Shown in pieces: positions 3,861-55,728 of a DNA stretch of 64,000 nucleotides. Within the stretch, counting starts at the first letter, position 1, and each line of letters begins with the position of its first letter. Position numbers and translations under genes: made by a program. A model generated the notes under the pieces. That model made no database searches and was not told the origin of the DNA. It was given only the letters and a program-made list of their open reading frames with translations. Source of the DNA: Streptomyces sp. rh34 (GTDB taxonomy: Bacteria; Actinomycetota; Actinomycetes; Streptomycetales; Streptomycetaceae); NCBI RefSeq assembly GCF_002551245.1, contig NZ_NTGZ01000003.1, positions 1 through 64,000 on the forward strand. Direction: 5' to 3'.

Positions 3861-6188
3861 TCAGTCGGTCTCGTCCGGTCGGCTGCCCAGGGCGACCTTC
3901 GAGGTCTTACCGTCCTTGATCCGGTGGATCTGTCCCTTCTTCTCCAGTTTGTTCAGCACGTTGGCGAAGGTCGACTCCGGTACCCCGCTGGCGGCGAGCA
4001 GGTGGCCGCGTTCGACGTAGTCGATGTCGTCGGGGGTGATGTCGTCGTCCTCGTCGAGCATGCTGACGTACAAGGGGTCGGACTCGTCGCGCAGCGCGGC
4101 CAGGACCTTCTCCTCCGACGTCCGCTCCCTGGGCTTCGGGAGGTCGACGCCTGGGAACGAGGTCCCCGCCTCACGTGTCCCGCCTTCGCCGTCCTTCTCC
4201 TCAAAGCCGGGGATAGGGGTCTGGGCCAGTTCCTCCATGTACGCCTCGTCGCCCCACCACGGCACGTCGACCGGGGCCATGACGTTCTCCGGGCGGATGT
4301 GCTCGGTGGCGTCCTCCAGGTTGTCGATCCGCATCATGCCCGCGCGGCCGCCCGGTGCGGCGACGTAGCCGAGGCCGAAGGTGCGGCGCGGGTCGGACTC
4401 CTCGACGGTCGGGTCGTAGACCAGTGAGTCGTCCTCCTCCGCCCACACCGCCGGGATGAGGGAGGGGTTCAGGCCTTCGAAGCCCGGGGGGAGGTCGCCG
4501 AGGTTCACCTGGTCGCTGTCGGTGCGCAGGATGATCCAGGTCCCTCCGGCCAGGAGGTTCGCGCGGATCGCCTGCTCGCTGCCGAGCTGGTCGAGGTTGA
4601 CGGTCTGGTTGATCAGGACCCAGGGCATGCCCAGGGAACGGGTCAGGGAGGCGCCGTCCTTGACGATCTTCACGGCCTCCTTGCGGTTCGGTGCTCCCGG
4701 GGCCAGCATCTGAGCGGCTTCGTCCAGGATGGTGGCGCAGTACGGCCGCGTCGCGGTGGGGGCGAAGTTCTTCAGCTCCAGGCGGGCGGCCTCCTCGATC
4801 CGGTGCTGGAGAACCCACCAGGACAGCCGCATGGCCCCGAGGGCGCCGAGGTTCGTCAGGCCGCTGTAGGCGGCCATCTTCGGGATCGCGGGGTTGCTGG
4901 CGCCCTTCGGGTCGCCGTAGATCTGGGCCATCATGTTCGCGTGGTACGCGAGGCTGATCATCTGGGCGGTGCCGCCCTTGCCGGAGCCGGTCGTACCGGC
5001 GATCACGACGTGGAGGGCGCCGAGCTTCGGATCGAACAGCTGGATCCGTGCGGGGAAGCCGGAGGCGATCTTCCCGATACTGACCCAGCCGCCCGGGGTC
5101 GCGACCAGGGATTCCAGGCCGGGGAAGTCGTGACCGTTCTCCAGCGGGTTGTGGTCCATGACGCGGATGATCGCGCGCCGCGGGTCGCGCCGTCCCGGCT
5201 CGTAGGAGACGAGGTCGATGGAACGGCGCAGCGCACCGGCCAGCTCCCCGAGGTTGACGACGCGGGGGAGTGCGTCGAGGTCGTCGTCGGCGATGACGCG
5301 GGCGACCTGGCCGCCGGTGTGCTCGTCCGGGCGGACCTCTTCCAGGTGGGTCTTCGGGAGGATCCGCGCCCTCACCCGCTTCCAGGCTCCTTCGAGGGTG
5401 GAGGGGTCCAGTTCGGCGCGCTGGGTGTACCAGACGGTGATGAGGGCCTCGCCGGAGTGCGTGCCGAACTTCAGGTCGATGTGATCGACGGAGCGGCCGA
5501 AGAGGCTGGAGACGGACTCCTTCGACACGTTCACGGAGTCGCCCAGGGCCGCGGTGATCCGCCCCTCCCAGCGGTCCGGGTAGATCACGACGTCGGAGAG
5601 GACCTGGTTGCGGTGGCGTCCCGTCTTCGGGTCGCTGATGACTCGGCCCCAGGCCGCGATCATCTTGTCGGCGAGCGACACCGGGGCGGGGTCACCGGTG
5701 TTCGCCGGCCCCGGTGCGGCCGGTGCCGACTGCCCCTGGACCGTGACCGTGCGGTGGCCGAAGACGCGGCGCAGGCGCCAGCCGGTGAAGCCGACCGCGG
5801 CCCACCACCCCAGCGACAGGATCCCGGGAACGGTGACCGGCTCCAGGAACCCGGCCATCAGCGCTTCGGACGCGTCGGCGCCGCCCAGCTGCCCCAGGGC
5901 CAGGCTCATCCCGGTGGTGATCGTGGAGATCCCCAGGGTGTCGCGGTGCGCCCGCGCGATGTCGATCCCGGGGAGCTGGGAGGCCCAGCGGCCCAGACGG
6001 TTCATGTAGTTAGCGCCGGTGAACGTGGCACCGGCCAGGAACCCGGCTCCGGCGTAGACCGCCGCGCTCGGGTCGAGGAGGGGGGCGAGGAGGCCCACCC
6101 CGACGGGGAGAGCGATCTGGAGTGCCGCGGCGGCCCGCTCCGCCGGCTCCGCGTTCGGCACCGTCCTGGTGAGGGTGGGCGTGGACAT
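3861..6188 (-). CDS. FtsK/SpoIIIE-type DNA translocase (conjugal transfer)
   Basis: 775 aa. Hydrophobic segments at about 22-55 and 120-137 should anchor it in the membrane. The P-loop GTTGSGKG is at 398-405 and the Walker B ATILDEA at 485-491. The C-terminal 60 residues form a winged-helix-like domain (ERGHLLAASGVPESTF...), in the position where FtsK and TraB place their DNA-reading domain. In actinomycetes one such hexameric ATPase can move double-stranded DNA between mycelial cells, so this is the probable transfer motor of the element. It follows the coiled-coil gene at 6289, separated by an 18-bp perfect hairpin. Confidence 0.9.
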   Translation of the reverse strand: MSTPTLTRTVPNAEPAERAAAALQIALPVGVGLLAPLLDPSAAVYAGAGFLAGATFTGANYMNRLGRWASQLPGIDIARAHRDTLGISTITTGMSLALGQLGGADASEALMAGFLEPVTVPGILSLGWWAAVGFTGWRLRRVFGHRTVTVQGQSAPAAPGPANTGDPAPVSLADKMIAAWGRVISDPKTGRHRNQVLSDVVIYPDRWEGRITAALGDSVNVSKESVSSLFGRSVDHIDLKFGTHSGEALITVWYTQRAELDPSTLEGAWKRVRARILPKTHLEEVRPDEHTGGQVARVIADDDLDALPRVVNLGELAGALRRSIDLVSYEPGRRDPRRAIIRVMDHNPLENGHDFPGLESLVATPGGWVSIGKIASGFPARIQLFDPKLGALHVVIAGTTGSGKGGTAQMISLAYHANMMAQIYGDPKGASNPAIPKMAAYSGLTNLGALGAMRLSWWVLQHRIEEAARLELKNFAPTATRPYCATILDEAAQMLAPGAPNRKEAVKIVKDGASLTRSLGMPWVLINQTVNLDQLGSEQAIRANLLAGGTWIILRTDSDQVNLGDLPPGFEGLNPSLIPAVWAEEDDSLVYDPTVEESDPRRTFGLGYVAAPGGRAGMMRIDNLEDATEHIRPENVMAPVDVPWWGDEAYMEELAQTPIPGFEEKDGEGGTREAGTSFPGVDLPKPRERTSEEKVLAALRDESDPLYVSMLDEDDDITPDDIDYVERGHLLAASGVPESTFANVLNKLEKKGQIHRIKDGKTSKVALGSRPDETD

Positions 6189-9397: not shown

Positions 9398-9913
9398 TCA
9401 GTCTCCGTTCTTTCGCGCCATGTCAGAGGCTGCAGAAATCGTAGCCTCCACACCCCGGAAGGTGTTGTGGGGGAGGTCATTCCATTCCCAGAACCGCATA
9501 GTCACGCCTTGGCGGGACAGTTGCGTCTGGAGGTAATTCACGGCCTTTCCCCGATCGATCGCGGTCACATGCCCGGTGGATTCCAGAAAGGTCTGGGCGC
9601 CCCTGAGACACATGCGTCCGGTAGGGGAGAAATCGAAGGACTGGCACCAGCCGTAGCGGGTGAGGACCTCGATCACCTGGGTCAGGTGAAACGACGGCTT
9701 CAACGGGCGCGGCTCCTGCCAGAGCCCCAGGTCAGCCATAGCGGACCGGATCCCCTTCGGGATCATGCGCTGACCCCAGGTCGGGGGCTCGGGCGCCCAG
9801 ATCTCCAGGGCCTGCGGGATCACGGCGGGCGGTGCCGGCGGGGACTCCGGCGGCGCCGTCGTGCGAGTGAAGCGCCCCGACGCCGGGGCGGCCCCGCTCG
9901 TCGTGGGTGTCAT
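9398..9913 (-). CDS. DUF6197-type protein
   Basis: 171 aa, start at 9913 with AAGGAG upstream. The C-terminal half carries the hallmarks of the actinomycete DUF6197 group: RYGWCQSFDFSPTGRMCLRG, then a helix, then FWEWNDLPHNTFRGVEATI. The function of the family is unknown; members are frequent on Streptomyces plasmids and mobile elements. The N-terminal 60 residues are Pro/Thr-rich. Confidence 0.8.
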   Translation of the reverse strand: MTPTTSGAAPASGRFTRTTAPPESPPAPPAVIPQALEIWAPEPPTWGQRMIPKGIRSAMADLGLWQEPRPLKPSFHLTQVIEVLTRYGWCQSFDFSPTGRMCLRGAQTFLESTGHVTAIDRGKAVNYLQTQLSRQGVTMRFWEWNDLPHNTFRGVEATISAASDMARKNGD

Positions 9914-9943
9914 GCTGCGCTCCTTCCGTACATCGGGGGAAGC

Positions 9944-9971
9944 CGAAGGCCCCGCGTGACGGGGGCCTTCG
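9944..9971 (-). terminator. terminator-like hairpin
   Basis: CGAAGGCCCC / GGGGCCTTCG stem with an 8-nt loop, in the 280-nt gap between the DUF2637 gene and the DUF6197 gene. It is close to the start of the latter and may be part of its 5' leader. Confidence 0.5.
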
Positions 9972-10020
9972 CGCCTGATCGGTTCAGGCGGGTGTCCGGA
10001 TGCGGATCGGGCACCTTCGT

Positions 10021-10056
10021 CTGCCACCAGGACTTCGTCAGAGGTACTGGTGGCAG
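10021..10056 (-). terminator. hairpin in the same gap
   Basis: Perfect 10-bp stem CTGCCACCAG / CTGGTGGCAG, loop 16 nt. The second of three hairpins within 10131-9944 reading leftward. Confidence 0.4.
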
Positions 10057-10130
10057 GTGAAGAAGCCGGATTCCGGCGACATGTGGAAGCGCCCCCGGGA
10101 CGGGAGCAGAGCTGCTGTGCTCGGTAGCGG

Positions 10131-10165
10131 TGAGGGCCAGCCCACTTCGGATGTGCTGGCCCTCA
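10131..10165 (-). terminator. terminator after the DUF2637 gene
   Basis: Perfect 11-bp stem TGAGGGCCAGC / GCTGGCCCTCA, loop 13 nt, 31 nt past the stop at 10196. Confidence 0.6.
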
Positions 10166-10195
10166 CTGCTGTGTGCCCGTGGACGAATGCGCAGG

Positions 10196-11971
10196 TCAGG
10201 GGCGGTAGCCGTTGGCGATGAGGATCGCGGCTTCCTGGCGGTACTTGGAGGCGGTGTCGGTGGAGGACACGTCGCACTCGCGCTGGACGTCGGTGATCGA
10301 GACACGCGCGTTCAGCTCGTCCTGCACGTCCTCCGGGGCCAGGCCGTCGGGAAGGAGGCCGGCGGTGAGGGCGAGGCGTGCGACCTTGCGCACGGAGCGC
10401 TCGCGCGGGCTGAGCTTGGCCTCGTCCTCGATTTCGACCGCGCGCCGCTCGATTTCGGCAGCAGCCCGATGCGTTTCGGCAGCAGCCTTCGCCGTTTCGG
10501 CGGCAGCCTTGCGGGCGGCCTCGGCACTGACTTCGGCGCGTGCCTTCCGCTTGATCTCCTCAGCCTCCTTCCGTTCCGTTTCGGCAGTAGCCCGACGCGT
10601 TTCGGCGGCAGCCGCTTCGATTTCGGCGGCGGCCTGGTCGGCTTCGGCTGTGGCCTGGCGAGCTTCGGCGATGGCCTGGGTCTCGACCGCCTGCGCTTCG
10701 GCCGCAGCGGCTCTGTCCGCCTCCGCCGCCTCCTTCCGCTTCTGCGCCGCCTGCCGTTCCAGCTCGGCCGTACGGAGGTCAGCGTCGGCCGTCGCCTCGC
10801 GGGCTTCGGCCTCCTCACGCTCGGCCTCGGCCACGCGTGTGCGGGCCTCGGCCTGGACCGCGGTCTCCAGCGCCGCCTCATCCTGGGCGGCAGCCTTCTC
10901 GGCGGCGCTGATCTGCGCCTTGGAGTGCGCCCGGGCCATCCCCTTCTCGCTGTCCACCCGGGCCCGGACCGATTCGAGCTGGCCGTCCGCTTCCAGGCGC
11001 TCGGCCTCGGCCCGGTTCTCCGCGAGCTTCTGGCGTGTCGTCGCCTCCCGGCGCCGCCGCTCGGCCTCCTCCGCCCGCTTCTCCGCCTCGGCTTCCTGCT
11101 GGTCAGGCATGGCGAGGGCCTCGCTGACGGTGTAGCCGTAGGGGGCCATCTTCATCGGCAGCCGCTCGTCGTCAGTGGCCTTGGACAGGTCTCCGTTGTA
11201 CTTGCGCTTGAGCCACTGCTCGTAGGCGAGGAGGTCCTGCTCGCGGCGGACCATCTCCGGGTAGGAGGACACCCCCCACAGCCGCATCCTGCGGTAGATC
11301 CGGGGAGTGGCGACCGGAGCCAGGACCCAGCGGATCAGCGGGATCGCGTCGCGGCCCTCCCGGTCGGGGCGCACGATCCGGTCGATCGCGTCACGGCCGA
11401 CCTCTACGATCATGATGAAAAGGACCGGGACGACGCCGTGCGCGAACGCGGCAACGTAGTCCAGCAGCTCCCACTGCTTGTCCTTGGGCGTGGCCGAGGC
11501 TGCGTTGAGAACGACGGTTGCGCTGGTCAGGAGCCATACCGGGTAGCGGACCCAGGTGATGGGGCGCTTGAGCCAGGCCATCAGGAGGTCGACGGCGATC
11601 ATCACCATGATGCCGACGTCGACGCCGACGGCGAACAGCTGGCCCTTGTCCAGCGAGCCGAAGCGGAGCTCCTTGTGCGCGAAGCTCGCGACGTGCGCGA
11701 ACGACAGGTACAGGCCGATCCCGGCCAGGATCAGCGCGGCGGCCACGATGCCGCCGATCGCGAGCTTCTGCAGACCCGTCAGCGGTTCGCGCCCGGAGGT
11801 GGAGCCGGTCTCGTCCGGATTCCGCTTCTGCGTCTCCGAAACGAAATCCGGCGTCTCCGAAACGGTGCCGGGTGCTGCCGAAACAGCGGCCAGTGTCTCC
11901 GAAACGACAGTCGGTGCGGGCGAAACGGGGTCGGGGACGGCCGCGGTGCGCGGCCACTCAGTGATCGTCAT
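10196..11971 (-). CDS. DUF2637-type membrane protein with long coiled coil and C-terminal HTH (spread protein candidate)
   Basis: 591 aa, start at 11971 with GGAGG upstream. Four hydrophobic helices lie at about 66-97, 109-134, 137-160 and 168-195, the layout of DUF2637 proteins of Streptomyces plasmids, some of which are called Spd (plasmid spread). Residues about 285-530 are a very long Ala/Glu/Arg coiled coil with AET heptads. The last 50 residues (ELNARVSITDVQRECDVSS...) look like a helix-turn-helix. Residues 16-47 repeat a VSET-like unit every seven residues, which at DNA level is part of a 21-bp phased hexamer array. An intercellular plasmid-spread role is inferred from family and context. 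Confidence 0.85.
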   Translation of the reverse strand: MTITEWPRTAAVPDPVSPAPTVVSETLAAVSAAPGTVSETPDFVSETQKRNPDETGSTSGREPLTGLQKLAIGGIVAAALILAGIGLYLSFAHVASFAHKELRFGSLDKGQLFAVGVDVGIMVMIAVDLLMAWLKRPITWVRYPVWLLTSATVVLNAASATPKDKQWELLDYVAAFAHGVVPVLFIMIVEVGRDAIDRIVRPDREGRDAIPLIRWVLAPVATPRIYRRMRLWGVSSYPEMVRREQDLLAYEQWLKRKYNGDLSKATDDERLPMKMAPYGYTVSEALAMPDQQEAEAEKRAEEAERRRREATTRQKLAENRAEAERLEADGQLESVRARVDSEKGMARAHSKAQISAAEKAAAQDEAALETAVQAEARTRVAEAEREEAEAREATADADLRTAELERQAAQKRKEAAEADRAAAAEAQAVETQAIAEARQATAEADQAAAEIEAAAAETRRATAETERKEAEEIKRKARAEVSAEAARKAAAETAKAAAETHRAAAEIERRAVEIEDEAKLSPRERSVRKVARLALTAGLLPDGLAPEDVQDELNARVSITDVQRECDVSSTDTASKYRQEAAILIANGYRP

Positions 11972-12223
11972 CAGGGCCTCCGGAATGAGGGGTTCAGGGC
12001 GTGAACGAAACGGCGGGCGCTGCCCCCGAAACGCGGGCGGCTGCTCCCGAAACGGGGTGCGGTGGAACCGAAACTGGGGTTCGTGCGGCTCACCGGCCGT
12101 GGTCCGGAACTCCGTCTCCGCCCGGTCCAGCGCGGCGGGAGCACCGGTGCCTGGGGGAGGGCGGCCGGTGCTCCCGAAACGCGGGCGGGCGGAGACGAAA
12201 CGCAGGCCGGGTGGAAACGAAAT
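11837..12223. repeat. CGAAAC hexamers in 21-bp phase (iteron-like)
   Basis: Plus-strand CGAAAC begins at 11837, 11858, 11879, 11900 and 11921 inside the DUF2637 gene, then at 12006, 12027, 12048 and 12069 upstream of its start, then at 12175 and 12196, with CGAAAT at 12218. Spacing is 21 bp within each run, and the gaps between runs are one base off a multiple of 21. The repeats continue through the start codon and 250 bp of non-coding DNA, so protein repetition alone does not explain them. A binding array for a replication, partition or regulatory protein is inferred. Confidence 0.6.
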
Positions 12224-12234
12224 GCTGGGCGCGG

Positions 12235-12813
12235 TCAGGCGGCACGCTCCGGCGCAGGGCCGTAGGTGCGAGCGAAAAGAGCGCCGGCGGTGAGGAGCGC
12301 GGTGATGTCCGCGAAGGTGCGGTTAAGACGCTCCGACCAGTACCCGAATCGGGCGGACGGGTGCCCGGTCAGGGCAACGACGACCAGATCCAGCACGTCA
12401 CCCGCGATGCGGCCGGTGTCGGGGTCGCCGTCCGCAGTCCTCGCGACACGGTTCAGCGCGTCACCGGCGGTGAGCCTGCCGCTGGCGGAGCGCTCTTCCT
12501 CGCGGATGTAGTCCAGGAGCTGGCGGAGCATGGTCTCGGTGGTCGCGGCGGCGTCGGCCTCGGCGAGCTGGGCGGGCGTCGGCGGGGTCCAGATGCGGTC
12601 CCAGCCGTTCGTGGCCAGCAGGTCGACGGTGGCCTCCAGGTGGCGGGCGACCGCCTCTCCGGTGGACTCCTCGCCCGAGGGCCCGGTCCAGGACATGTGC
12701 GGGGAGTCGGGCACGAGCCGCGCCGCCCGCTCCAGCATCTCCGTCGTGATGACCACGGCGGTAGCGGTGAAAGCCTGGGTCCGGGGCGGGGTATTGGTCT
12801 GGCTCTGGGGCAT
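12235..12813 (-). CDS. hypothetical protein, 192 aa
   Basis: Start at 12813 (MPQSQTN) with GAGGCC upstream. Largely helical and soluble. C-terminal segment SARFGYWSERLNRTFADITALLT is distinctive but I cannot assign it. It ends just left of the phased hexamers upstream of the DUF2637 gene. Confidence 0.75.
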   Translation of the reverse strand: MPQSQTNTPPRTQAFTATAVVITTEMLERAARLVPDSPHMSWTGPSGEESTGEAVARHLEATVDLLATNGWDRIWTPPTPAQLAEADAAATTETMLRQLLDYIREEERSASGRLTAGDALNRVARTADGDPDTGRIAGDVLDLVVVALTGHPSARFGYWSERLNRTFADITALLTAGALFARTYGPAPERAA

Positions 12814-12913
12814 GGTGGCCTCGTTCGTCGGATGGTCCGGGCTGTTCGGCTCCCTGTCAACGCCCGTCCCGGCCGCCGTGGGGGGCGGTCGGTGCGGGCG
12901 GGTCGGGCAGCCG

Positions 12914-13267
12914 TCAGACCGGCGACGAGGCGCTGGTGGACCGGGCCGTCATCGACGCGTGGAGCGCGGCCATGCCGGTCTTGCCGCGGCGGGCCGTGCC
13001 CCCGATCAGCGCGTGGCCCTCCGTGAGCCGGAGGTCCAGGGCGGCGTCGGTGGGCCGGTGCGGGGCAACGACCTGGCCGTCGGGGAGCAGTTCGCCGGTG
13101 TCCTCGAAGAGCAGGACGGCGTTGCACAACAGGTTCCAGCCCTGCTCCGGGTGGGCGGCCACGACCTTCGCGGCCTCCCGGTCGGGGCTGTCGGCGCTCG
13201 GGCACTTCTGGGTGTGCTTGCACAGCGAGTCCGGCAGCACTGTGGGGGTGTTCGTCGTCTTGGGCAT
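12914..13267 (-). CDS. DUF5999-type protein
   Basis: 117 aa, start at 13267 with GAGGAGAGG upstream. Residues about 15-80 match the small actinomycete DUF5999 proteins: C-x4-C-PSADSPDREAAKVVA, HPEQGWNLLCNAVLLFEDTG, LLPDGQVVAPHRP. The family has no known function and often occurs on mobile elements. The usual member ends soon after this core; here there is a 35-residue Thr/Ala/Ser-rich tail. Confidence 0.85.
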   Translation of the reverse strand: MPKTTNTPTVLPDSLCKHTQKCPSADSPDREAAKVVAAHPEQGWNLLCNAVLLFEDTGELLPDGQVVAPHRPTDAALDLRLTEGHALIGGTARRGKTGMAALHASMTARSTSASSPV

Positions 13268-13316
13268 GCGAGCCTCTCCTCAGGTGCGTTGGTCCGGGCT
13301 GTCCGGCTCCCCTCGG

Positions 13317-14664: not shown

Positions 14665-15222
14665 TCAGGCGGCGCCGGCGGGAAGAGGGCGAGACGCAAA
14701 GTTCTTCGCCCTCTGGAAGATCGGCGCGGGGAGGTTGTGCCTGGCTCGGAGCTCTTCGACTTCGGCCTCGGTGAGGCCGTGCCGCGAAGCGCCGTTCACG
14801 TAGATCGACAGAGCCTCGTAGTTGTTATCCGGGAGGACTCCGCCGTTTTGCGCGATGAGATCGGCGAACCGCGGAAGTACGAGGTTGAGGAGGGTGAAGG
14901 CGTAGTCCCTGTTCTCCGGCTCGGGGTCGGGCTCGTCCACGCTGGTCTCACCCGCATCAGGCAGTGCCGGGACTGTCCGAAGGCGGGTCTCCAGCTCAGC
15001 GGACTTCTCCTCGGCACGCCTGGCCCGGGAGTTGGCGATGTCGTACGCGGCCACCAGTGCCTCCCGAGCAAGGCGAGCGCCGTTCAGCTCGTCCGTCAGG
15101 CGCACCACCTCGCCGTTCTTGACCTCGATGCTCGCGGCCAGGGCAACGGCCCCTCGCTCGGCATGGGCGAGCTGGCTGCGTAATGCGTCGGCGGTTGTGC
15201 GTCGTACAAACGGCAGCTTCAT
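14665..15222 (-). CDS. coiled-coil hypothetical protein, 185 aa
   Basis: Start at 15222 (MKLPFVRRTT). The first 85 residues are a coiled coil, then an acidic linker (DEPDPEPENRD), then a globular segment (LTEAEVEELRARHNLP). No family recognised. Flanked on both sides by related hairpins, so it is probably its own transcription unit. Confidence 0.75.
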   Translation of the reverse strand: MKLPFVRRTTADALRSQLAHAERGAVALAASIEVKNGEVVRLTDELNGARLAREALVAAYDIANSRARRAEEKSAELETRLRTVPALPDAGETSVDEPDPEPENRDYAFTLLNLVLPRFADLIAQNGGVLPDNNYEALSIYVNGASRHGLTEAEVEELRARHNLPAPIFQRAKNFASRPLPAGAA

Positions 15223-15330: not shown

Positions 15331-16362
15331 CTACCAGCGGTGGGTAAGGTCCTTCTGCTGCCGCTCCACGACCGCGATGGTGGTCTCCAGCTCGGCTCGC
15401 TCCCACGTGGTGAGCGGCCGGGCGCCGGGCTTGGTCGGGACGTTGAGCATCTTGCGCAGCGCGGTCAGAACGTCGCGGACGCGCTGCTGGTCGGTCTCGT
15501 GGACCGGGCGGCCCAGCTTGTCCCACTGCTGGTCGTGCAGCAGGCGCAGCGCCCAAGCTTGGTGGGCGGCCCACTCCTCCTGCTCCGTCTGCCTCTGTCG
15601 GCGGATGGGTGCGGTCCGCTGGGTGTGGGCGGCGAGGTGGGCAAGGCGGCGGCCATCGGCGCACCGGGACCCCGTGAGCGAGCAGGTGACGCAGCTCGTG
15701 ATGTGCGAGCGGACCAGCTTCGGCGCGGCGGCGGCAATGCGGCGGGCCCCCGCGCAGCGGGACTTCGGCGGGGCGCAGGTGGTGCAGGCCGTGACATGCG
15801 CGGCGACGAGCTTCGGTGCGGCTTCGGCGAGGCGGCGGCCGTCCGCGCAGCGGGGGGTGGTTGCGGAGCAGGTCGTGCAGCTCTTGACGTGGGCCTCGTG
15901 CAGCTTGCGGGCCGTGCGTTCGTCGACGAGGCCGCCGACGATCTGCATGACGGCGGGGGTGGGCATCGGCTGGGGCTTGCGGACGACGCGGTCGGCGCGG
16001 CGGCCGCTGGTCTCCGCGACACCCTGCTCCAGGCGGCGGGACCACTTGGCGATGTTGACGTCGATCGTGACGAGGCGGTGGCTGCCGAGGAGGCACCGGA
16101 CCGGGTCTTCGGTGCCGGCGGGCTCATTGTGGTGGGGGACCAGCTTGGCCGTGGCCCGCTCCGTGTCGGCGACGCGGATCGGGACCCAGGTGCGGCAGGT
16201 CGGGCACACGAGGGAGATGGAGGCGGGGTCGAGGTCGTACTCGTGCGGGGGGAGCTTGGAAACGACGATCGGGTCGAGGTGGCTGATCGTGCGCGACCTC
16301 GTCCTCCGCTTGCGCTTCTGACTGACGGTCTGGACCTCACGCTCACGGACGGGTGCGGTCAT
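15331..16362 (-). CDS. protein with three tandem His/Cys (zinc-finger-like) repeats, 343 aa
   Basis: Start at 16362 (MTAPVRE) with GAGGAG seven bases upstream. The basic N-terminus (SQKRKRRTRSR) is followed by a C-x2-C site, then three repeats of about 28 residues at roughly 165-250, each reading H-x3-C-x2-C-x6-C-x2-(G/A)RR(L/I)A. The C-terminal third is helical and basic. Such repeats suggest nucleic-acid or protein binding through zinc. It is the first gene of the minus-strand module and divergent from the GntR-family gene, so it is a likely target of that repressor. Confidence 0.75.
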   Translation of the reverse strand: MTAPVREREVQTVSQKRKRRTRSRTISHLDPIVVSKLPPHEYDLDPASISLVCPTCRTWVPIRVADTERATAKLVPHHNEPAGTEDPVRCLLGSHRLVTIDVNIAKWSRRLEQGVAETSGRRADRVVRKPQPMPTPAVMQIVGGLVDERTARKLHEAHVKSCTTCSATTPRCADGRRLAEAAPKLVAAHVTACTTCAPPKSRCAGARRIAAAAPKLVRSHITSCVTCSLTGSRCADGRRLAHLAAHTQRTAPIRRQRQTEQEEWAAHQAWALRLLHDQQWDKLGRPVHETDQQRVRDVLTALRKMLNVPTKPGARPLTTWERAELETTIAVVERQQKDLTHRW

Positions 16363-16416
16363 GGGACAACTCCTCACGATGGCAGGGGGTGGGCGTCGCG
16401 GGTGCCCTCTCGGCCG

Positions 16417-16638: not shown

Positions 16639-16671
16639 CCACTAGCGCTCCCTAACGCTAGTGGTAGCGCT
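16639..16671. promoter_or_regulatory. operator: inverted repeat CCACTAGCG-N8-CGCTAGTGG plus half-site
   Basis: Nine-bp perfect arms at 16639-16647 and 16656-16664, followed by another TAGCGCT at 16665-16671. It lies between the divergent GntR-type gene and the minus-strand module and directly upstream of the regulator's probable promoter. This fits an autoregulatory KorSA-like operator. Confidence 0.75.
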
Positions 16672-16677
16672 GGAAGT

Positions 16678-16705
16678 TTGCGTGGCGTACCCTCTGACGT
16701 ATAGA
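16678..16705 (+). promoter_or_regulatory. promoter of the GntR-type gene
   Basis: TTGCGT (16678-16683) and TATAGA (16700-16705) with 16-bp spacing, immediately after the operator, 48 nt upstream of the start codon. Confidence 0.5.
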
Positions 16706-16753
16706 GCTGCACCAATGGAGGTGGGGCGCGTGAATCAGAGAGAGGAGACCGGT

Positions 16754-17494
16754 ATGCCCAATACAGTCGGATATGCAGAGATCGCCGCGAACTATCGCAA
16801 GCAGATTCAGGACGGGGTGCTTGAGCCAGGCACCACGATGCCGTCGCTGCGGCAGGTCTGTGAGCGTTATGGCGTGGCTCAGACGACCGCGAACAGGGCC
16901 TACCGAGTCCTCAAGATGGAAGGCCTGACCATGGCCAAGCCGGGCGTGGGCACGGTTGTGGTTGGGCCAGCCAGCAACAACATCGGCACCCGCGTCCGGC
17001 TCTACGAGGAGACGGGAAAGGCGCTGGACGGCGGCGAGAGCTCTCGGATTTTCGAGGTAGGCACCGTCGGAGCGGACGAGTTGGTTGCACCGCGCCTTGA
17101 CGTCACGCCTGGCACGCCTGTCCATGTCCGCCACCGTGTGGTCAGCCGCAATGGTGTCCCCGTACACCTGAGCAGCTCCTACTACCCCGCCTTCGTGGTC
17201 GCTGCGGCGCCCGAGCTGGCTGAGCCTGTTTCGACCGGCGGCTCTCGCGAGCTGGCAGCGGCGCGTCTTGGCGTTGCTCAGCATCGCGTTCTGGAGGAAG
17301 TGACGTCGCGTCTTGCCACCAGCGCGGAAAAGGAGCATTTGGGCCTGACGGCTGGAGATGTGGTCGTAAGCCAAATCGTCCGGACGGTAACGCTGGCCGA
17401 CGATCGTGTCGTTGAAGTAGCGGTGAAGATCACCGGCGGAGCGACCATCCTCCGATGGAGCACATCTCTGGCAGTCGACGCTCTCAAGAAATGA
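16754..17494 (+). CDS. GntR-family regulator (HutC/KorSA type)
   Basis: 246 aa, start at 16754 preceded by AGAGGAG at six-base spacing. Residues about 5-68 are a GntR winged helix (GYAEIAANYRKQI ... SLRQVCERYGVAQTTANRAY ... PGVGTVV). Residues about 85-245 match a UTRA ligand-binding domain. In pSAM2-type elements KorSA, a GntR regulator, represses the activator/transfer genes and itself. The position here, divergent from a transfer module with an inverted-repeat operator in between, fits that role. Confidence 0.9.
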   Translation: MPNTVGYAEIAANYRKQIQDGVLEPGTTMPSLRQVCERYGVAQTTANRAYRVLKMEGLTMAKPGVGTVVVGPASNNIGTRVRLYEETGKALDGGESSRIFEVGTVGADELVAPRLDVTPGTPVHVRHRVVSRNGVPVHLSSSYYPAFVVAAAPELAEPVSTGGSRELAAARLGVAQHRVLEEVTSRLATSAEKEHLGLTAGDVVVSQIVRTVTLADDRVVEVAVKITGGATILRWSTSLAVDALKK

Positions 17495-20957: not shown

Positions 20958-23469
20958 CCCGCCAGGCCCACGTGCGCGGGGAGCAGGTCGTCGTCTCCCT
21001 CCCGCTCCAGGTCATGGCGGGGCCATCCCCGCACGTGCGGGGAGCAGGCGGCCCGCCGTTCGGCGACCTGCGCGGCGTTGGGACCATCCCCGCGGGCGCA
21101 GGGAGCAGCGGACCAGCTTCTTGACCGCCCGCTCCACCTCGGGACCATCCCCGCGGGCGCGGGGAGCAGGAGCCGTACGGGACCTGGACCACGCGCGGGT
21201 AGGGGCCATCCCCGCGGGCACGGGGGGGGCAGATCCTGTCCCGAACCGGGGCGGTGCCGCCGTCGGGGCCATCCCCGCGGGCGCGGGGAGCAGGTCCGGA
21301 CCAGGAACACCAACCGCCGTGCACCGGGACCATCCCCGCACGCGCGGGGAGCAGGACGCACTCCTCGACGGTGCCGAACCGAAGCCGGGACCATCCCCGC
21401 ACTCGCGGGAAGCAGGGTGGGGACGGCGTCTTCGGGGGTCATGCTGCGGGACCATCCCTGCGGGTGCGGGGAGCAGACGAGCACCGACGACCAGTCGGTG
21501 GCCAGGGAGGGACCATTCCCGCGGGTGCGGGGAGCAGCCGGGTCGCGAGGCCGAGGCAGGACAGCAGGCGGGGCCATCCCCGCAGGTGCGGGGAGCAGAG
21601 CGACCGCACGTCGGCAAGGCCCGGCGTGGCGGGGCCATCCCCGCGGGCGCGGGGAGCAGCCGGACGGAGATTCCCGGTCGCGATGGTGGGACCATCCCCG
21701 CGGGTGCAGGGAGCAGCGGCAGCTGAAATGCCGAGGACTCGGGGGGCCGGGACCATCCCCACGGGTGCAGGGAGCAGTTCGTCCTCGTCCACGGTCGCGG
21801 CGCCGCTTCGGGACCATCCCCGCGGGCGCGGGGAGCAGGACCCCCGACGACCCGTGCCCGTGGTCACGGGACCATCCCCGCGGGTGCGGGGAGCAGCGGC
21901 CCACCAACCGTACCGACCACCTGGAGCCGGGACTATCCCCGCGGGTGCGGGGAGCAGGGGTGCCAACGGGTCTGGATGCCCACCACGGCGGGACCATCCC
22001 CGCGGGTGCGGGGAGCAGCCGGTCCGGGTCATCAGGAGCTTGATCGTCTCGGGACCATCCCCGCGCGTGCGGGGAGCAGACGCGCATGCTGTTCGTGGCC
22101 GCGCCCCTGGAGGGACCATCCCCGCACGCGCGGGGAGTAGCGACGCCTTCCAGGTGTCGACGGCGACGGACCGGCGCCATCCCTACGTACGTGGGGAGCA
22201 GGAGTGCTGTGGCGGCGGGGGGACCTGACGGAGGCGTTGGTACGGGCCGCCGGGAACAGCGCCCAGGAACTGCCAAACCGTCGGGACCATACCGCAGGCG
22301 CGGAAGCAGCCGGCGAACCCAACTTCCACACATCCACGCCGGGCTCGTCCTCACCTGCGTGGGGAACAGGCACCGCTGTCCCGTTCGGTGGACGCCCCCC
22401 TGGGACTATCCCCGCGGGCGCGGGGAGCAGACCGACGTGTGGCCGGTCCAGATGACCTTCACGGGACCATCCCCGCACGTGCGGGGAGCAGAACGGCTCC
22501 AGGCCGTTGCCGTCGCGGCCCTTGGGACCATCCCCGCACGCGCGGGGAGCAGCTGATGTGGACGCCCAGTGGAGTGTCCTCGTCGGGACCATCCCCGCAC
22601 GCGCGGGGAGCAGCAGATCTCCGCCTTCGCGTCCCAGACCCGGCTGGGACCATCCCCGCACGCGCGGGGAGCAGTTCTGACGGCGGCGCGTCAGGTTCTT
22701 GTTGTCGGGACCATCCCCGCACGCGCGGGGAGCAGACTGCTGATCTCGTCCTCCCCGTGGATCGATGGGGACCATCCCCGCACGCGCGGGGAGCAGCCGG
22801 TCGACCCATGCGACGCACACGATGCCGCGGGACCATCCCCGCACGCGCGGGGAGCAGCGTACGCGTAGGGCCCCCCTCCGTCCGGTCGAGGGACCATCCC
22901 CGCACGCGCGGGGAGCAGGCCGCACGGGCCCGGCGTGCGATCGACCGCAGGGGACCATCCCCGCACGCGCGGGGAGCAGTCAAAGAGGTTGACGAGAACG
23001 GGCTCCGGCTCGGGACCATCCCCGCACGCGCGGGGAGCAGCCTGAATAGTCCCGAGCGGCGGCACCCTCAAGGGGACCATCCCCGCACGCGCGGGGAGCA
23101 GCAATGTCATCGCGTGGGGAGCCCTGCCGAATGGGGACCATCCCCGCACGCGCCGGGAGCAGCCGCCGACCAACTGCGCGCCGCCGCCGTCTGGGGGACC
23201 ATCCCCGCACGCGCCGGGAGCAGTCGCCGAAGAGGCGAGCGTCAGCCTCGCCAGCGGGACCATCCCCGCACGCGCCGGGAGCAGGTGGTGTCGGGCTTGC
23301 TGAGGCGGCTCATCGGGGGGACCATCCCCGCACGCGCCGGGAGCAGACCGCGTCGCCCACGCCCAGCCGATCCCGATGGGGACCATCCCCGCACGCGCCG
23401 GGAGCAGAGCGCCGTCGGGGAACAGGCGAGCGAACTCCTTGGGACCATCCCCGCACGCGCCGGGAGCAG
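20958..23469 (-). CRISPR. CRISPR array A (type I-E, about 42 repeats)
   Basis: 29-nt repeats of the type GGGACCATCC-CCGC...GGGGAGCAG recur every 61 nt (32-nt spacers). Repeat ends fall at 21047, 21108, 21169 and so on to 23469. Leader is on the right, so transcription is leftward. The repeats fall in blocks: leader-distal ones are mixed and degenerate (20986, 21232, 22201-22369), the middle ones (22552-23101) carry GCACGCGCGGGG, and the six leader-proximal ones (23162-23469) carry GCACGCGCCGGG. Two spacers are short (28 nt at 21660-21687, 29 nt at 21839-21867). Confidence 0.97.
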
Positions 23470-23545
23470 ACTTCTTGACCTGCAGCTTTACAGCGGGTTG
23501 GTGCACTTCTCGAGCACTTTCACCGAATGCGACATATCGGTCATG
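23470..23545 (-). promoter_or_regulatory. leader of array A
   Basis: Begins ACTTCTTGACCTGCAGC next to the last repeat and contains GCACTTTCACCGAATGCGAC. The same block borders arrays B, D, E and F, which marks it as the leader carrying the promoter and integration signals. Confidence 0.85.
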
Positions 23546-23626
23546 AAGTTGACTCCGCCTCCGTGTGGCTGATGCCGTGGCATCGAGCTTATAGCCCGCG
23601 GATCGTGGTGGAGCACCTCGACAGCA

Positions 23627-25423
23627 CGGACGCCAACCGCGGGTGCGGGGAACAGCACGTTGGTCGGCTGTCCGCGACCACGGAGGGACCACATGCTCGC
23701 GGCGCGGAGCAGCGTACCGGCCCGTCCCACGCCTACACCGACGTGGGGCCACCCCCGCACGGGCGGGGAGCAGGCGGCGGTCGACATCGTCCCGACCATC
23801 CCCCAGGGGCCATCCCCGCGGGTGCGGGGAGCAGGGGGCCGTGTCCGGCACCCCGTCCCAGATCCGGGGACCATCCCCGCGGGTGCGGGGAGCAGGAGGC
23901 GCGGAAGCGTGAGGAGGACTCCTGCCTGGGACCATCCCCGCGGGTGCGGGGAGCAGGCCACGCGGCACCCGACAACTCCGGGTTGTCAGGGACCATCCCC
24001 GCGGGTGCGGGGAGCAGGCCATGGCTACGGGGACGCACCACATGATGTCGACGGGACCATCCCCGCACGCGCGGGGAGCAGTCGAACGCGGTGAGGTCGA
24101 GGGTGACGGTCTGGGGACCATCCCCGCGGGCGCGGGGAGCAGCCTCCGGCGCCCGGCGTTCGGCGGGAGCCGACGGGACCATCCCCGCGGGCGCGGGGAG
24201 CAGTGCCACGGTCCGAGACGCCCGGGTCCGCGACCGGGACCATCCCCGCGGGCGCGGGGAGCAGGGGATGGGGCGTTCGCCGCCGTCCCAGTCGCAGGGA
24301 CCATCCCCGCGGGCGCGGGGAGCAGTGTTCAAGAAGTGGTGCGCCGAGCAAGGGCGCGGGACCATCCCCGCGGGCGCGGGGAGCAGTGTTCAAGAAGTGG
24401 TGCGCCGAGCAAGGGCGCGGGACCATCCCCGCGGGCGCGGGGAGCAGCGACGCCGCACTCCTGGTCCGCGACGGCACCGGGGACCATCCCCGCGGGCGCG
24501 GGGAGCAGGAGCTGCGCCGGGCGGTCGACAAGCGGTTGCGGGGACCATCCCCGCGGGCGCGGGGAGCAGGGAGAGCACGCCTTCGAGGAAGCCCGTGCCG
24601 AGGGACCATCCCCGCGGGCGCGGGGAGCAGGCTGTCCGGAGGGGGTGTCGCCGACACGCAGGGGGACCATCCCCGCGGGCGCGGGGAGCAGGTAACCACC
24701 TGCCTCACCCGACACCTCTCCGTGGGACCATCCCCGCGGGCGCGGGGAGCAGTTCCAGCCGGAGAGGTCGGCGTCCTCGGCCGCGGGACCATCCCCGCGG
24801 GCGCGGGGAGCAGGTCGAGACATACTGTGGAGCTCTGGTAAGGGAGGGACCATCCCCGCGGGCGCGGGGAGCAGTCCGTCGGTGACCCGTCGGAGTCCCC
24901 GACCAAGGGACCATCCCCGCGGGCGCGGGGAGCAGTTCTGTTTCACGGTGTCCTCGATTTCTGAGTGAGGACCATCCCCGCGGGCGCGGGGAGCAGCGGA
25001 CCGCGGCGAAGGCGGCGAGCAAGAACCCGGGACCATCCCCGCGGGCGCGGGGAGCAGCGAGGAAGCCGGCTGCTCCCCCGTAGGCGAGGGGGACCATCCC
25101 CGCGGGCGCGGGGAGCAGTCCAGGGCATGTCGGGGCTCCAGAAGGCTGCCGGGACCATCCCCGCGGGCGCGGGGAGCAGACGTCGCTGATCGCGACGCTG
25201 ATCGCGGCGCTGGGACCATCCCCGCGGGCGCGGGGAGCAGTCCGGTGCCTTGTATGCCATGGCTTCTCCCTGTGGACCATCCCCGCGGGCGCGGGGAGCA
25301 GGAGGCCCAGCCGAAGGCGGAGACGATGTTGCGGGGACCATCCCCGCGGGCGCGGGGAGCAGGAGTGGAACCGTCCTGACGACAGCCTCCACTGGGGACC
25401 ATCCCCGCGGGCGCGGGGAGCAG
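23627..25423 (-). CRISPR. CRISPR array B (type I-E, about 30 repeats)
   Basis: Repeat ends run from 23655 (degenerate) and 23712 (degenerate) to 25423 at 61-nt steps. The older repeats 23834-24017 carry GCGGGTGCGGGG and those from 24142 onward carry GCGGGCGCGGGG. The spacers at 24326-24357 and 24387-24418 are identical. The spacer at 24018-24052 is 35 nt. The first spacer next to the leader (25363-25394) is identical to spacer 15 of array F. Confidence 0.97.
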
Positions 25424-39940: not shown

Positions 39941-40381
39941 GGCCGACGGCGGCCGACTCGGACAGCTCCGGCGCGGTCTCCAGCACGGCGGAGCTCGGTG
40001 ACGACCAGCCATATCGGCTTGCCCAGCGTGTGGGCAGCCGGTGACGCGGAGCATGTCACCGGGAACCAGGTCATGGATGTGGTGCGAGTCCCGGCCCTGA
40101 CGGTGCACAGTTCCTCCTGCGCCTCGCGCTGCGCGGGCTTCGAGTCGCGGCGCTCGGACAGCTCGGAGAGGTCGGCGGTGATACGGGCGGCTGCGGACCG
40201 AGGCGGTCGGGTGCCCGGCCGCCCGTCGATCAGCTCCTGGAGCGAGCCTGTGTCGAGCCCAGGAGCACGGTGCCTGCACAGTGAGACGGACTCTGGGGCG
40301 TTTCGAGAAGGGGAGAATACGTTTCGGGGCTTCGAAGCCCGTGCCTGTGACCTGCGGCTTTGGGGTTTTAGACAGATCCCT
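39941..40381. other. decayed sequence up to array D
   Basis: No intact gene. Contains fragments in shifting minus-strand frames that continue the remnant above. The segment ends at the precise border with the first repeat of array D. Confidence 0.4.
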
Positions 40382-42242
40382 CCCCGCGGGTGCGGGGAGC
40401 AGGGACCGGTCGGTCAAAGCCACCCGGAGTCTGCGGGACCATCCCCGCGGGCGCGGGGAGCAGGAGCCTTCACGCCCTCGGCAGGGGAGCGGTCCAGGAC
40501 CATCCCCGCGGGCGCGGGGAGCAGCGCCCCGGACCCTGCGGTCTGGAGACGCTCGGGGGCGAAATCGGACCATCCCCGCGGGCGCGGGGAGCAGACCGGC
40601 CCCCACGCGCCTTTGTGGTTCCGGTTGGGACCATCCCCGCGGGCGCGGGGAGCAGGACGGCGCCCGCCGGCCTTTTGGTCGGCGGGCGGGACCATCCCCG
40701 CGGGCGCGGGGAGCAGCTCGACCGGGCCGACCGGCCTCACCGGTCCTGGGGACCATCCCCGCGGGCGCGGGGAGCAGTTGCTCAGCTGGGACGGCTTGGT
40801 GCGCGGGGCGGGACCATCCCCGCGGGCGCGGGGAGCAGTCGACGGGTTCACCCTCGGCATCGACGAAGACGGGACCATCCCCGCGGGCGCGGGGAGCAGG
40901 GACGCGGCGCGCCGTCACCGGGCTGACCCCGGGGACCATCCCCGCGGGCGCGGGGAGCAGGGTCCTCCGTAGGGCGGCGATCTGTCGGTCACGGGACCAT
41001 CCCCGCGGGCGCGGGGAGCAGCTGCTCGGCGGTCCGGTGGTACCTACGCTTGTGGGACCATCCCCGCGGGCGCGGGGAGCAGGTCCACGCCTCGACGGAC
41101 CCCGGATTCGTCCCGGGACCATCCCCGCGGGCGCGGGGAGCAGTTCCCTGCCGCCTCGTTCGCGACCTTGTTCAGGGGACCATCCCCGCGGGCGCGGGGA
41201 GCAGCCCTTTTTGCCGTGCGGCTGCCCGGGTTGTCCGGGACCATCCCCGCGGGCGCGGGGAGCAGTCCGCGTGCTCTGCCGCATCGGCGATTAGCGCGGG
41301 ACCATCCCCGCGGGCGCGGGGAGCAGGACAACGAGGCGTTGCTCATCGAGGGCGCCGAGGGACCATCCCCGCGGGCGCGGGGAGCAGACCCTCGCGAGCC
41401 GTGCGCAGAAGGGGCAGACGGGACCATCCCCGCGGGCGCGGGGAGCAGGGCACCCATGCAGTCACCCGCTCGTCTGCCTCCGGGACCATCCCCGCGGGCG
41501 CGGGGAGCAGTCCCGCTTTAGCCAGCCGCCGTCCTCCAGCTTGGGACCATCCCCGCGGGCGCGGGGAGCAGCGGCCCGACTTGAGGTCGCCGCGGGCCAG
41601 CTCGGGACCATCCCCGCGGGCGCGGGGAGCAGCGCCGCGCCATGTCCCCGCCGGTCCGCAGGTTGGGACCATCCCCGCGGGCGCGGGGAGCAGGGATACG
41701 TACAGATCGGCGTCGGCGTCTCCGGAGGACCATCCCCGCGGGCGCGGGGAGCAGGCATACGGGGCGGCCGTCCGGGATGGATCCGGGGGACCATCCCCGC
41801 GGGCGCGGGGAGCAGTGCGTACGGCGTGGGCGTGGCAGGCCGGTGGCGGGACCATCCCCGCGGGCGCGGGGAGCAGCCTGCGTGAATGCCTTGACGTGAC
41901 CTCTAGAAGGGACCATCCCCGCGGGCGCGGGGAGCAGTCCGGCTCGACGAGGTGCTCGACCTGCCGGCCGGGACCATCCCCGCGGGCGCGGGGAGCAGAA
42001 CCGGACACAGCTCCGGCCGTAACGGCGTTCGGGACCATCCCCGCGGGCGCGGGGAGCAGGCTACTGCTCGGTTACGAGGAGGGCGGCAGGGGGGACCATC
42101 CCCGCGGGCGCGGGGAGCAGGACGGCTCGCGACACACTGAACCGTTCCGCGAGGGACCATCCCCGCGGGCGCGGGGAGCAGTCCGGCTTCGGGTCGTCCA
42201 TGGGCTCGGGGTCGGGACCATCCCCGCGGGCGCGGGGAGCAG
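40382..42242 (-). CRISPR. CRISPR array D (type I-E, about 31 repeats)
   Basis: Repeat ends run from 40403 to 42242 at 61-nt steps, leader on the right next to cas2. All repeats are GGGACCATCC-CCGCGGGCGCGGGGAGCAG type except the oldest, which is the GGGTG variant and has lost its first bases. The spacer at 40525-40565 is about 41 nt, far longer than the usual 32. Confidence 0.97.
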
Positions 42243-42322
42243 ACTCGATGACCTGCAGGTTTACCGTGGGTTCATCAGTTTCTCAAGCACTTTCACTGAT
42301 TCCGACATATAAGACATTCCGC
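42243..42322 (-). promoter_or_regulatory. leader of array D
   Basis: Eighty bases between the newest repeat and the cas2 stop codon, sharing the GACCTGCAGG and CAAGCACTTTCACTGATTCC blocks with the other leaders but more diverged than those of B and F. Confidence 0.8.
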
Positions 42323-55663: not shown

Positions 55664-55728
55664 ACCGGCGGTTCGTGAACTGGGCTTCACCGTGTGCGTG
55701 TGCTCTCCGTGCGAGCGGAGGTGAGCCG

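Follow-up and report, generated by a model that had tools for sequence, protein, structure and literature searches.

A helically phased hexamer array across the start codon of a Streptomyces DUF2637 gene and the C-terminal helix-turn-helix that may recognise it

The locus

The stretch of DNA analysed here comprises positions 1 to 64,000 of contig NZ_NTGZ01000003.1 of Streptomyces sp. rh34 (assembly GCF_002551245.1) and is referred to as the window. On its minus strand lies a gene for a protein of the Pfam family DUF2637, and around the start codon of this gene, as well as near its end, a short word is repeated with helical regularity. The word reads CGAAAC on the plus strand and, as the gene is on the minus strand, GTTTCG in the sense of the gene. 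The features on which the analysis rests are as follows.

10196 to 11971, minus strand: DUF2637 gene, 591 amino acids (Pfam PF10935, E 9e-22), ATG at 11971
11837 to 11926, minus strand: 5' array, coding run, five GTTTCG in 21-bp steps, codons 16 to 45 of the DUF2637 gene
12006 to 12074, minus strand: 5' array, proximal upstream run, four GTTTCG at -40, -61, -82 and -103 from the ATG
12175 to 12223, minus strand: 5' array, distal upstream run, GTTTCG at -209 and -230, ATTTCG at -252
12127 to 12185, minus strand: inverted repeat between the distal and proximal runs, 21-nt arms, 81% complementary, 17 nt apart
10473 to 10604, plus strand: 3' array in coiled-coil codons, GTTTCG at 10473, 10494, 10578 and 10599; in gene sense CGAAAC, in the codons for A-E-T
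10199 to 10429, minus strand: C-terminal helix-turn-helix (HTH), proposed reader of the array (profile A2), last helix TDTASKYRQEAAILIA

The initial annotation described eleven copies of CGAAAC and one of CGAAAT running from codon 45 of the gene to about 250 bp upstream of its start, and this description holds, with a number of copies far above chance. On the plus strand CGAAAC begins at 11837, 11858, 11879, 11900 and 11921, at 12006, 12027, 12048 and 12069, and at 12175 and 12196, and CGAAAT at 12218 forms the twelfth member; the copies are 21 bp apart inside the runs, 85 and 106 bp apart between them and 22 bp apart at the step to CGAAAT. The runs occupy different reading frames relative to the gene. 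The coding run specifies the heptads VSPAPTV, VSETLAA, VSAAPGT, VSETPDF and VSETQ, and seven copies fall in the 263-bp gap between the gene and the next minus-strand open reading frame (ORF), which spans 12235 to 12813 and has a DUF6197 match. A GGAGG resembling a ribosome-binding site stands shortly 5' of the ATG, and the inverted repeat at 12127 to 12185 is surrounded by a second pair with 12-nt arms (12113 to 12124 and 12186 to 12197).

Across the window CGAAAC occurs 40 times, against 23.2 +/- 5.3 expected and a count reached in none of 100 shuffles, and the longer word GTTTCGN4CN2C (derived below) occurs 14 times against 2.5 expected, with 12 of the 14 in the DUF2637 gene region. Among all CGAAAC and GTTTCG on the 116.8-kb contig, the sole other pair 20 to 22 or 42 bp apart begins at 40300 and 40321. 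This isolated pair of GTTTCG (window 40300 to 40326, 21 bp apart) lies near the start of a CRISPR-like (clustered regularly interspaced short palindromic repeats) array, has no C at +10 and is probably due to chance.

Conservation of the array as DNA

Loss of the upstream hexamers in related elements is what the initial annotation had looked to as evidence against a binding array, and it is seen in none of the 36 orthologs with a known start; L071, whose match begins at residue 30, is outside these start-based counts. Each of the 36 carries three to seven upstream hexamers, and the spacers between them diverge. The density of upstream hexamers is 15.2 per kb against 0.046 per kb (one strand) in the flanks, and in 37 sequences the hexamer columns hold 1.56 bits against 1.04 outside (p = 3e-8). 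Allowing a deviation of 2 bp, the slot at -40 is filled in 34 of the 36, that at -61 in all 36, that at -82 in 20 and that at -103 in 8, and of the distal slots -209 is filled in 29 and -230 and -252 in three each. These hexamers use all three reading frames (26, 85 and 37). Upstream here means non-coding in the window; in the orthologs, whose upstream gene ends were not mapped, stops occur in all three gene-sense frames between -270 and 0 in 15 of 36 and in one or two frames in 21.

Inside the gene the same constraint is visible at silent sites. Valine at the slots of the coding array is encoded by the rare codon GTT in 128 of 128 cases (37 genes), against 47 of 1229 elsewhere, and serine by TCG in 157 of 159, against 128 of 689; the silent-site bias places the constraint on the DNA. 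When the sites of the 37 genes are stacked, the repeated unit extends past the hexamer and reads GTTTCG-N4-C-N2-C; position +10 is a C in 99% of 154 upstream, 97% of 127 coding and 96% of 119 coil sites.

The 21-bp phasing claimed at first stands within the runs but not as a strict rule, for the conserved upstream spacing is that of the helical repeat. A period of 10.55 to 10.6 bp scores 0.93 for the upstream distances when these are weighted and 0.85 when each distinct distance counts once, with the 99.9% level of the null at 0.34, whereas a period of 21.0 bp scores 0.62 and 0.08; the shorter period fits better because spacings of 31 to 32, 51 to 53, 72 to 75 and 95 to 96 bp, odd numbers of helical turns, also occur. 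Distances between neighbours in 25 distinct layouts score 0.95 weighted and 0.88 to 0.89 once each, which none of 5000 random sets equals, under nulls that ignore the relatedness of the sequences. The array on both sides of the start codon is thus constrained as DNA and helically phased.

Distribution of the array and covariation with the HTH

The initial annotation suggested looking for the array in related plasmids, and there it proves to be a family feature of DUF2637 genes that encode the HTH. Three hexamers with gaps of 15 to 16 bases were found in 19 of 295 genomes of the same genus, against one match (G217) for the reversed control; 15 of the 19 have a DUF2637-HTH gene at or near the match, with the HTH of G256 on another contig, and four (G008, G205, G228, G280) have none near it. 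The HTH profile itself matches in 30 of the 295 genomes and, across the phylum, in 2 of 296, both of the same genus and one of them the window's own. Several matches lie on plasmid-sized replicons, the second to fifth contigs (17 to 308 kb) of near-complete genomes; that of G055 is on the first contig. Among 53 loci found by protein profile, 41 carry the GTTTCG array and eight of the remaining 12 a different hexamer repeated at 21 bp within the gene or close to it (L074-L076, L078-L081 and L089, where the first match to the other word lay in coil codons); L077 shows an excess of repeats at lag 21, and L083, L084 and L086, which are without the HTH, show no such excess.

Comparison of 153 DUF2637 genes with enough upstream sequence ties the array to the HTH. 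Under a strict test, in which repeats at lag 21 must exceed those at every other lag and number at least 20, 53 of 66 genes with the HTH are positive against 1 of 87 without it, and under a looser test 61 of 66 against 10 of 87; the mean number of exact 6-mer repeats at lag 21 is 15.7 and 2.1, respectively. The window gene (L001) is among those with a lag-21 array around the start codon. For this comparison six genes with too little upstream sequence were left out, L024 (an incomplete locus that has the array) was removed from the group without the HTH, and L228 (HTH frame interrupted) and two L127 entries were kept in that group. In 16 further plasmids, hand-picked (13 and 3 from two 40-row listings) and not dereplicated against the earlier genomes, lag 21 ranks first in 10 of 11 genes with the HTH and in none of 5 without it; nine of the 11 also reach at least 20 repeats.

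The word is not the same throughout the family but varies with the HTH, taking the forms GTTTCG, CTTCGG..ACTC, GCTCCG, CGTTCC and others. Among 62 genes, with word classes hand-assigned for 23 of them and some labels overlapping (CGCTCC, GCTCCGG, GCTCCG), sharing of a word is predicted by HTH identity with an area under the curve of 0.98, against 0.75 for identity of the DUF2637 domain, and for pairs with DUF2637 identity below 50% the values are 0.98 and 0.64; L215, L220, L222 and L225, HTH genes with no clear word, are not part of this comparison. The DUF2637 domain of L088 is only about 31% identical to some members of its clade, yet L088 has a similar HTH and the same word. In the further plasmids the expected word, judged by eye, accompanies the helix: GTTTCG with TASEYR (L242, L243), TTCCCG/CGTTCC with TASNYR (L256, L257) and GCTCCG with AAGDIRK (L245).

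Known plasmids belong to the family. On SCP2 the 'putative multidomain membrane protein' SCP2.27c has the HTH (E 2.7e-25), GCTTCG stands at -60, -39, +66, +87 and +108 of its gene, and the reverse complement occurs in the coil in eight phased copies; these are the only phased copies of GCTTCG on SCP2. In pFP4 the HTH is present (E 3.8e-25) and lag 21 ranks first, and pSV2 has a GTTTCG array.

The DUF2637 protein

Membership of the window protein in PF10935 is clear (78.1 bits against a curated cut-off of 22.8). It consists of the N-terminal VS heptads, membrane-like stretches (residues 64-98, 109-135 and 169-193 by hydropathy), a coiled coil and the C-terminal HTH. An AlphaFold2 model of the last 109 residues (mean predicted local distance difference test 84, predicted template modelling score 0.72) has helices at 40-54, 64-74, 77-84 and 89-104, and on this model the end of the protein appears HTH-like, with TDTASKYRQEAAILIA as the last helix. 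The window gene matches profile A2 with E 6.9e-28, by construction, since its own HTH is one of the seeds. Pfam matches of the HTHs are scattered and mostly to weakly matching HTH families, the best being LexA_DNA_bind (E 0.0004), with none for the window member, and a search of the PDB by sequence gave three matches, all with E 0.29 or worse. The protein matches two PHROGs families, both of unknown function.

The inverted array in the coil codons

The copies of CGAAAC that the initial annotation noticed in the coiled-coil codons are real, and their orientation is opposite to that of the 5' array. Glutamate in the A-E-T of the coil is encoded by GAA in 114 of 142 cases, against 401 of 1596 for other coil glutamates. 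Against synonymous shuffles, applied to 26 genes, the window gene has four coil copies where 1.29 are expected (p 0.016; phased, p 0.002), and phased copies are in excess in each of six GTTTCG genes (p 0.002 to 0.016). The reverse complement of the gene's own word is strongly over-represented in the coil of five CTTCGG..ACTC genes (L074: 18 against 5.1) and is in excess in L079 (4 against 1.0) and L214 (4 against 1.3). On plasmid-type records L226 (1707-1796) and L227 (5357-5467) a further inverted phased hexamer array lies about 1.7 kb past the end of the gene.

Gene order and neighbouring genes

Two further features delimit the gene order in which the DUF2637 gene stands.

16661 to 17494, plus strand: GntR/UTRA regulator (Pfam), divergent, upstream end of the gene order
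3861 to 6188, minus strand: presumed translocase, 775-amino-acid ORF without a Pfam or PHROGs family, downstream end of the gene order

The order in the window is GntR / ... DUF6197, DUF2637, p209, p243, p654 (visibly Gly-rich), presumed translocase, and it resembles that of SCP2, GntR (SCP2.35, divergent) / 32c, 31c, 30c, 28c, 27c, 25c, 24c, 23c (Gly-rich), traB, traX, traA, a likeness of Pfam domains and order. The names translocase and rep (the latter for a 732-amino-acid protein, likewise with no Pfam or PHROGs family) are presumed labels. Relatives of the presumed translocase were found at 26 to 33% identity in 10 of the 37 loci with the same word (tblastn, E 1e-5; some loci incomplete), and relatives of the presumed rep, which starts about 6.5 kb from the array, in 18 of the 37. 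The window GntR is 73 to 78% identical in seven of nine loci with other words (L074-L081 and L089, L079 and L080 being near duplicates) and 42% and 28% identical in the other two, whereas it is 27 to 38% identical in 29 of the 37 GTTTCG loci and was not found in the other eight, some loci being incomplete. A 348-amino-acid protein (15331 to 16377) with repeated CxxC-type segments and a 93-bp tandem repeat has relatives in 33 of the 37. The GntR regulator does not track the word, and the neighbouring genes track it less well than the HTH does; the DUF2637-HTH protein alone is present in all loci, but it is the protein through which the loci were found.

The initial annotation named three HTH proteins as candidate binders. 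The C-terminal HTH of the DUF2637 protein is favoured, as word and array track it, and the translocase and the 732-amino-acid protein, with relatives found in 10 and 18 of 37 loci, some of these loci being incomplete, are disfavoured.

No ParA or ParB match was found by Pfam among ten window proteins scanned (the ORFs at 9398-10027 and 14665-15222 lay outside the scan). In four of the 16 further plasmids (L246, L247, L250, L253) the DUF2637 gene lies near a ParA-family or partition gene; L253 has this HTH and a lag-21 array as well, and the other three have neither.

Discussion

The explanation we favour is that the hexamers serve the locally encoded DUF2637 protein as its address, and that the two would form a membrane-tethered complex serving transfer or spread together with autoregulation, a statement that as a whole we regard as rather probable. 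Its core, that the protein binds its own array, is very likely on the comparisons made here. In the strongest step of the proposed mechanism the C-terminal HTH would bind cooperatively to hexamers that share one face of the helix; in a weaker one, suggested by the membrane-like stretches and the long coiled coil of the protein, this binding would tether the plasmid region at the membrane. The opposed orientation of the two arrays points to looping, so that they may be joined in a loop. Binding would also dampen expression of the DUF2637 gene itself, and within a tra-type gene order it would earmark the plasmid for transfer by conjugation or for spread within the mycelium. As the layout is kept while the word changes with the tail of the protein, it is probable that the protein recognises the plasmid that encodes it and anchors it. 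More tentatively, and with less confidence than doubt, we envisage plasmid proteins that form a membrane-anchored, self-addressing family, each with an evolving address before the start and within the codons of its gene, whose two opposed phased arrays could be closed as a membrane-bound loop.

Of what the initial annotation had proposed, a cooperative protein-binding array is strongly supported by upstream conservation, same-face phasing and silent sites; no support emerged for replication iterons or a ParABS-type site, and transfer recognition would fit the gene order.

Several observations weigh against the favoured explanation. HTH and array lie in one gene, and linkage alone would make both covary by descent; relatedness is likewise ignored by the nulls for helical phase, and after dereplication at 70% identity the first group without the HTH comes to six clusters, with 17 of 19 against 3 of 6 positive by the loose criterion (p = 0.07). 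Five HTH genes (L066, L215, L220, L222, L225) fail the loose lag-21 test, ten of the 87 genes without the HTH pass it, and L248 is the one HTH gene among the 11 of the further plasmids to fail. SCP2 has GCTTCG with the helix TASEYR, but the clade of the window (TASEYR/TASKYR) has GTTTCG, and in pSV2 (L238 5998-7494) the DUF2637 protein as annotated stops immediately ahead of the HTH, whose coding sequence is in a different frame of the record (E 6.5e-25). The plain count of coil copies exceeds the synonymous shuffle in just two of the six GTTTCG genes, the coil array gives a mixed or weak signal in genes with GCTCCG, CGCTCC and CTTCGA, and by synonymous shuffles it is not seen in CGTTCC, CTCCGG, CGTCAC and CATTTC genes. 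Structure matches of the HTH are weak, with a best Foldseek E of 1.2 and a best VIA-align Z of 4.9 (AddAB, followed by the DeoR DNA-binding domain at 4.8), no more than common HTH-like arrangements.

That the array is an autoregulatory operator only, at which the HTH represses its own gene by coating the start region and takes no part in the movement or anchoring of DNA, is unlikely. Self-recognition is well supported and the array spans the GGAGG and the start codon, as an operator would; sites beyond -200 and inverted sites in coil codons 1.2 to 1.6 kb downstream are, however, not what it calls for, the membrane stretches would be superfluous in a soluble repressor, and no sigma-70-like promoter was found in 11700-12400 by a kind of scan that misses many Streptomyces promoters.

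A partition or centromere-like site, as part of a one-protein stability system tethering plasmids to the membrane, is a less probable reading still. The parts are of the same kinds (DNA-binding domain, coiled coil, membrane anchor), membrane tethering has been proposed for RocS and possibly for pSK1 Par (PMC11500499), and L253 combines HTH, array and a nearby ParA gene. Three of the four plasmids with such a gene are nevertheless without HTH and array, the window gene sits in a tra-type order, and SCP2 already has parATS, with ParT encoded by SCP2.04c and parS inside parT (PMC12260392), located away from SCP2.27c.

It is very unlikely that the FtsK-like translocase recognises the array as its clt/TRS. 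The clt loci of Streptomyces are rich in repeats and translocase-bound, for example in pWTY27 (PMC3583192), and a presumed translocase stands in the same gene order, but its relatives were found in 10 of the 37 loci with this array, some of them incomplete, and the word tracks the HTH of the DUF2637 protein instead. Replication iterons are more improbable again: other theta plasmids of Streptomyces are described as having direct repeats next to the rep gene (PMC3583192), yet the presumed rep is distant from the array and relatives of it were found in 18 of the 37 loci, RepI of SCP2 is described as binding non-coding sequence beside repI, and the array of SCP2 is upstream of its tra genes. A by-product of a repeated protein segment or of a slipping minisatellite, to which the coincidence of heptads and 21-bp period in the coding part might point, is contradicted by the use of all three frames upstream, the phase of 10.55 to 10.6 bp with its odd numbers of turns, the hexamers that stay as spacers diverge and the invariant GTT.

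Sites inside the gene of their binder are already known, and so are proteins for which tethering of DNA to the membrane has been proposed. SpdA2 of pIJ101 is a DNA-binding protein that recognises a site, sps, in its own coding region and affects stability (PMC4170104); the window system likewise has its site within the gene of its putative binder on Streptomyces DNA, but sps is a short palindrome, whereas the words in the window extend as a long array over the start codon and recur inverted in the coil, and the window protein, unlike the SpdA2/sps system, has membrane-like stretches. SpdB2 of pSVH1 is an integral membrane, oligomeric, DNA-binding spread protein (PMC4170104, citing Tiffert 2007), whose binding is described as non-specific and whose likeness to the window protein is one of description. 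RocS and pSK1 Par share with it a DNA-binding domain and a coiled coil (PMC11500499), an apparent likeness of parts, RocS being anchored by an amphipathic helix. ParT/parS of SCP2, a plasmid that also has a DUF2637-HTH array, again places the site inside the gene of its binder, but parS consists of a single inverted repeat of 18 bp, and ParT, a sliding clamp, acts together with ParA (PMC12260392). The clt of pWTY27 and its relatives is a repeat-rich cis site lying partly in a coding region (PMC3583192); it is bound by the TraA translocase, whereas the window word tracks the HTH of the DUF2637 protein. In the parts of the open-licence PubMed Central literature consulted we found no description of an array of evolving words around the start of a DUF2637 gene.

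There is no complete understanding of how Streptomyces plasmids are chosen and moved through hyphae as double-stranded DNA, and most plasmid proteins of this kind are described as being of unknown function (PMC4170104). A frequent, unnamed plasmid protein now comes with probable binding sites, several pairs of word and helix would allow specificity swaps, and SCP2 is a classic laboratory plasmid on which to test them. If such a self-addressing family exists, these plasmids would possess a private tether for transfer and spread of double-stranded DNA, apart from translocase recognition and from ParABS, and new specificities would arise by joint change of helix and word.

Other features of the region

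A promoter and terminator scan of the array region gave no promoter-like site and one terminator-like site against 0.6 expected. An RNA element was considered and rejected: 9800-13300 has no Rfam match, and a consensus fold of 22 upstream regions has little covariation (two-sided change in 4 of 24 pairs). Just 3' of the presumed translocase, where a separate clt was sought, there are several inverted repeats and nothing decisive. The same contig carries three long CRISPR-like arrays (window 21141-25179, 40567-42252 and 53141-55664), built of the repeat GGGACCATCCCCGCGGGCGCGGGGAGCAG and close variants with a period of about 61 bp.

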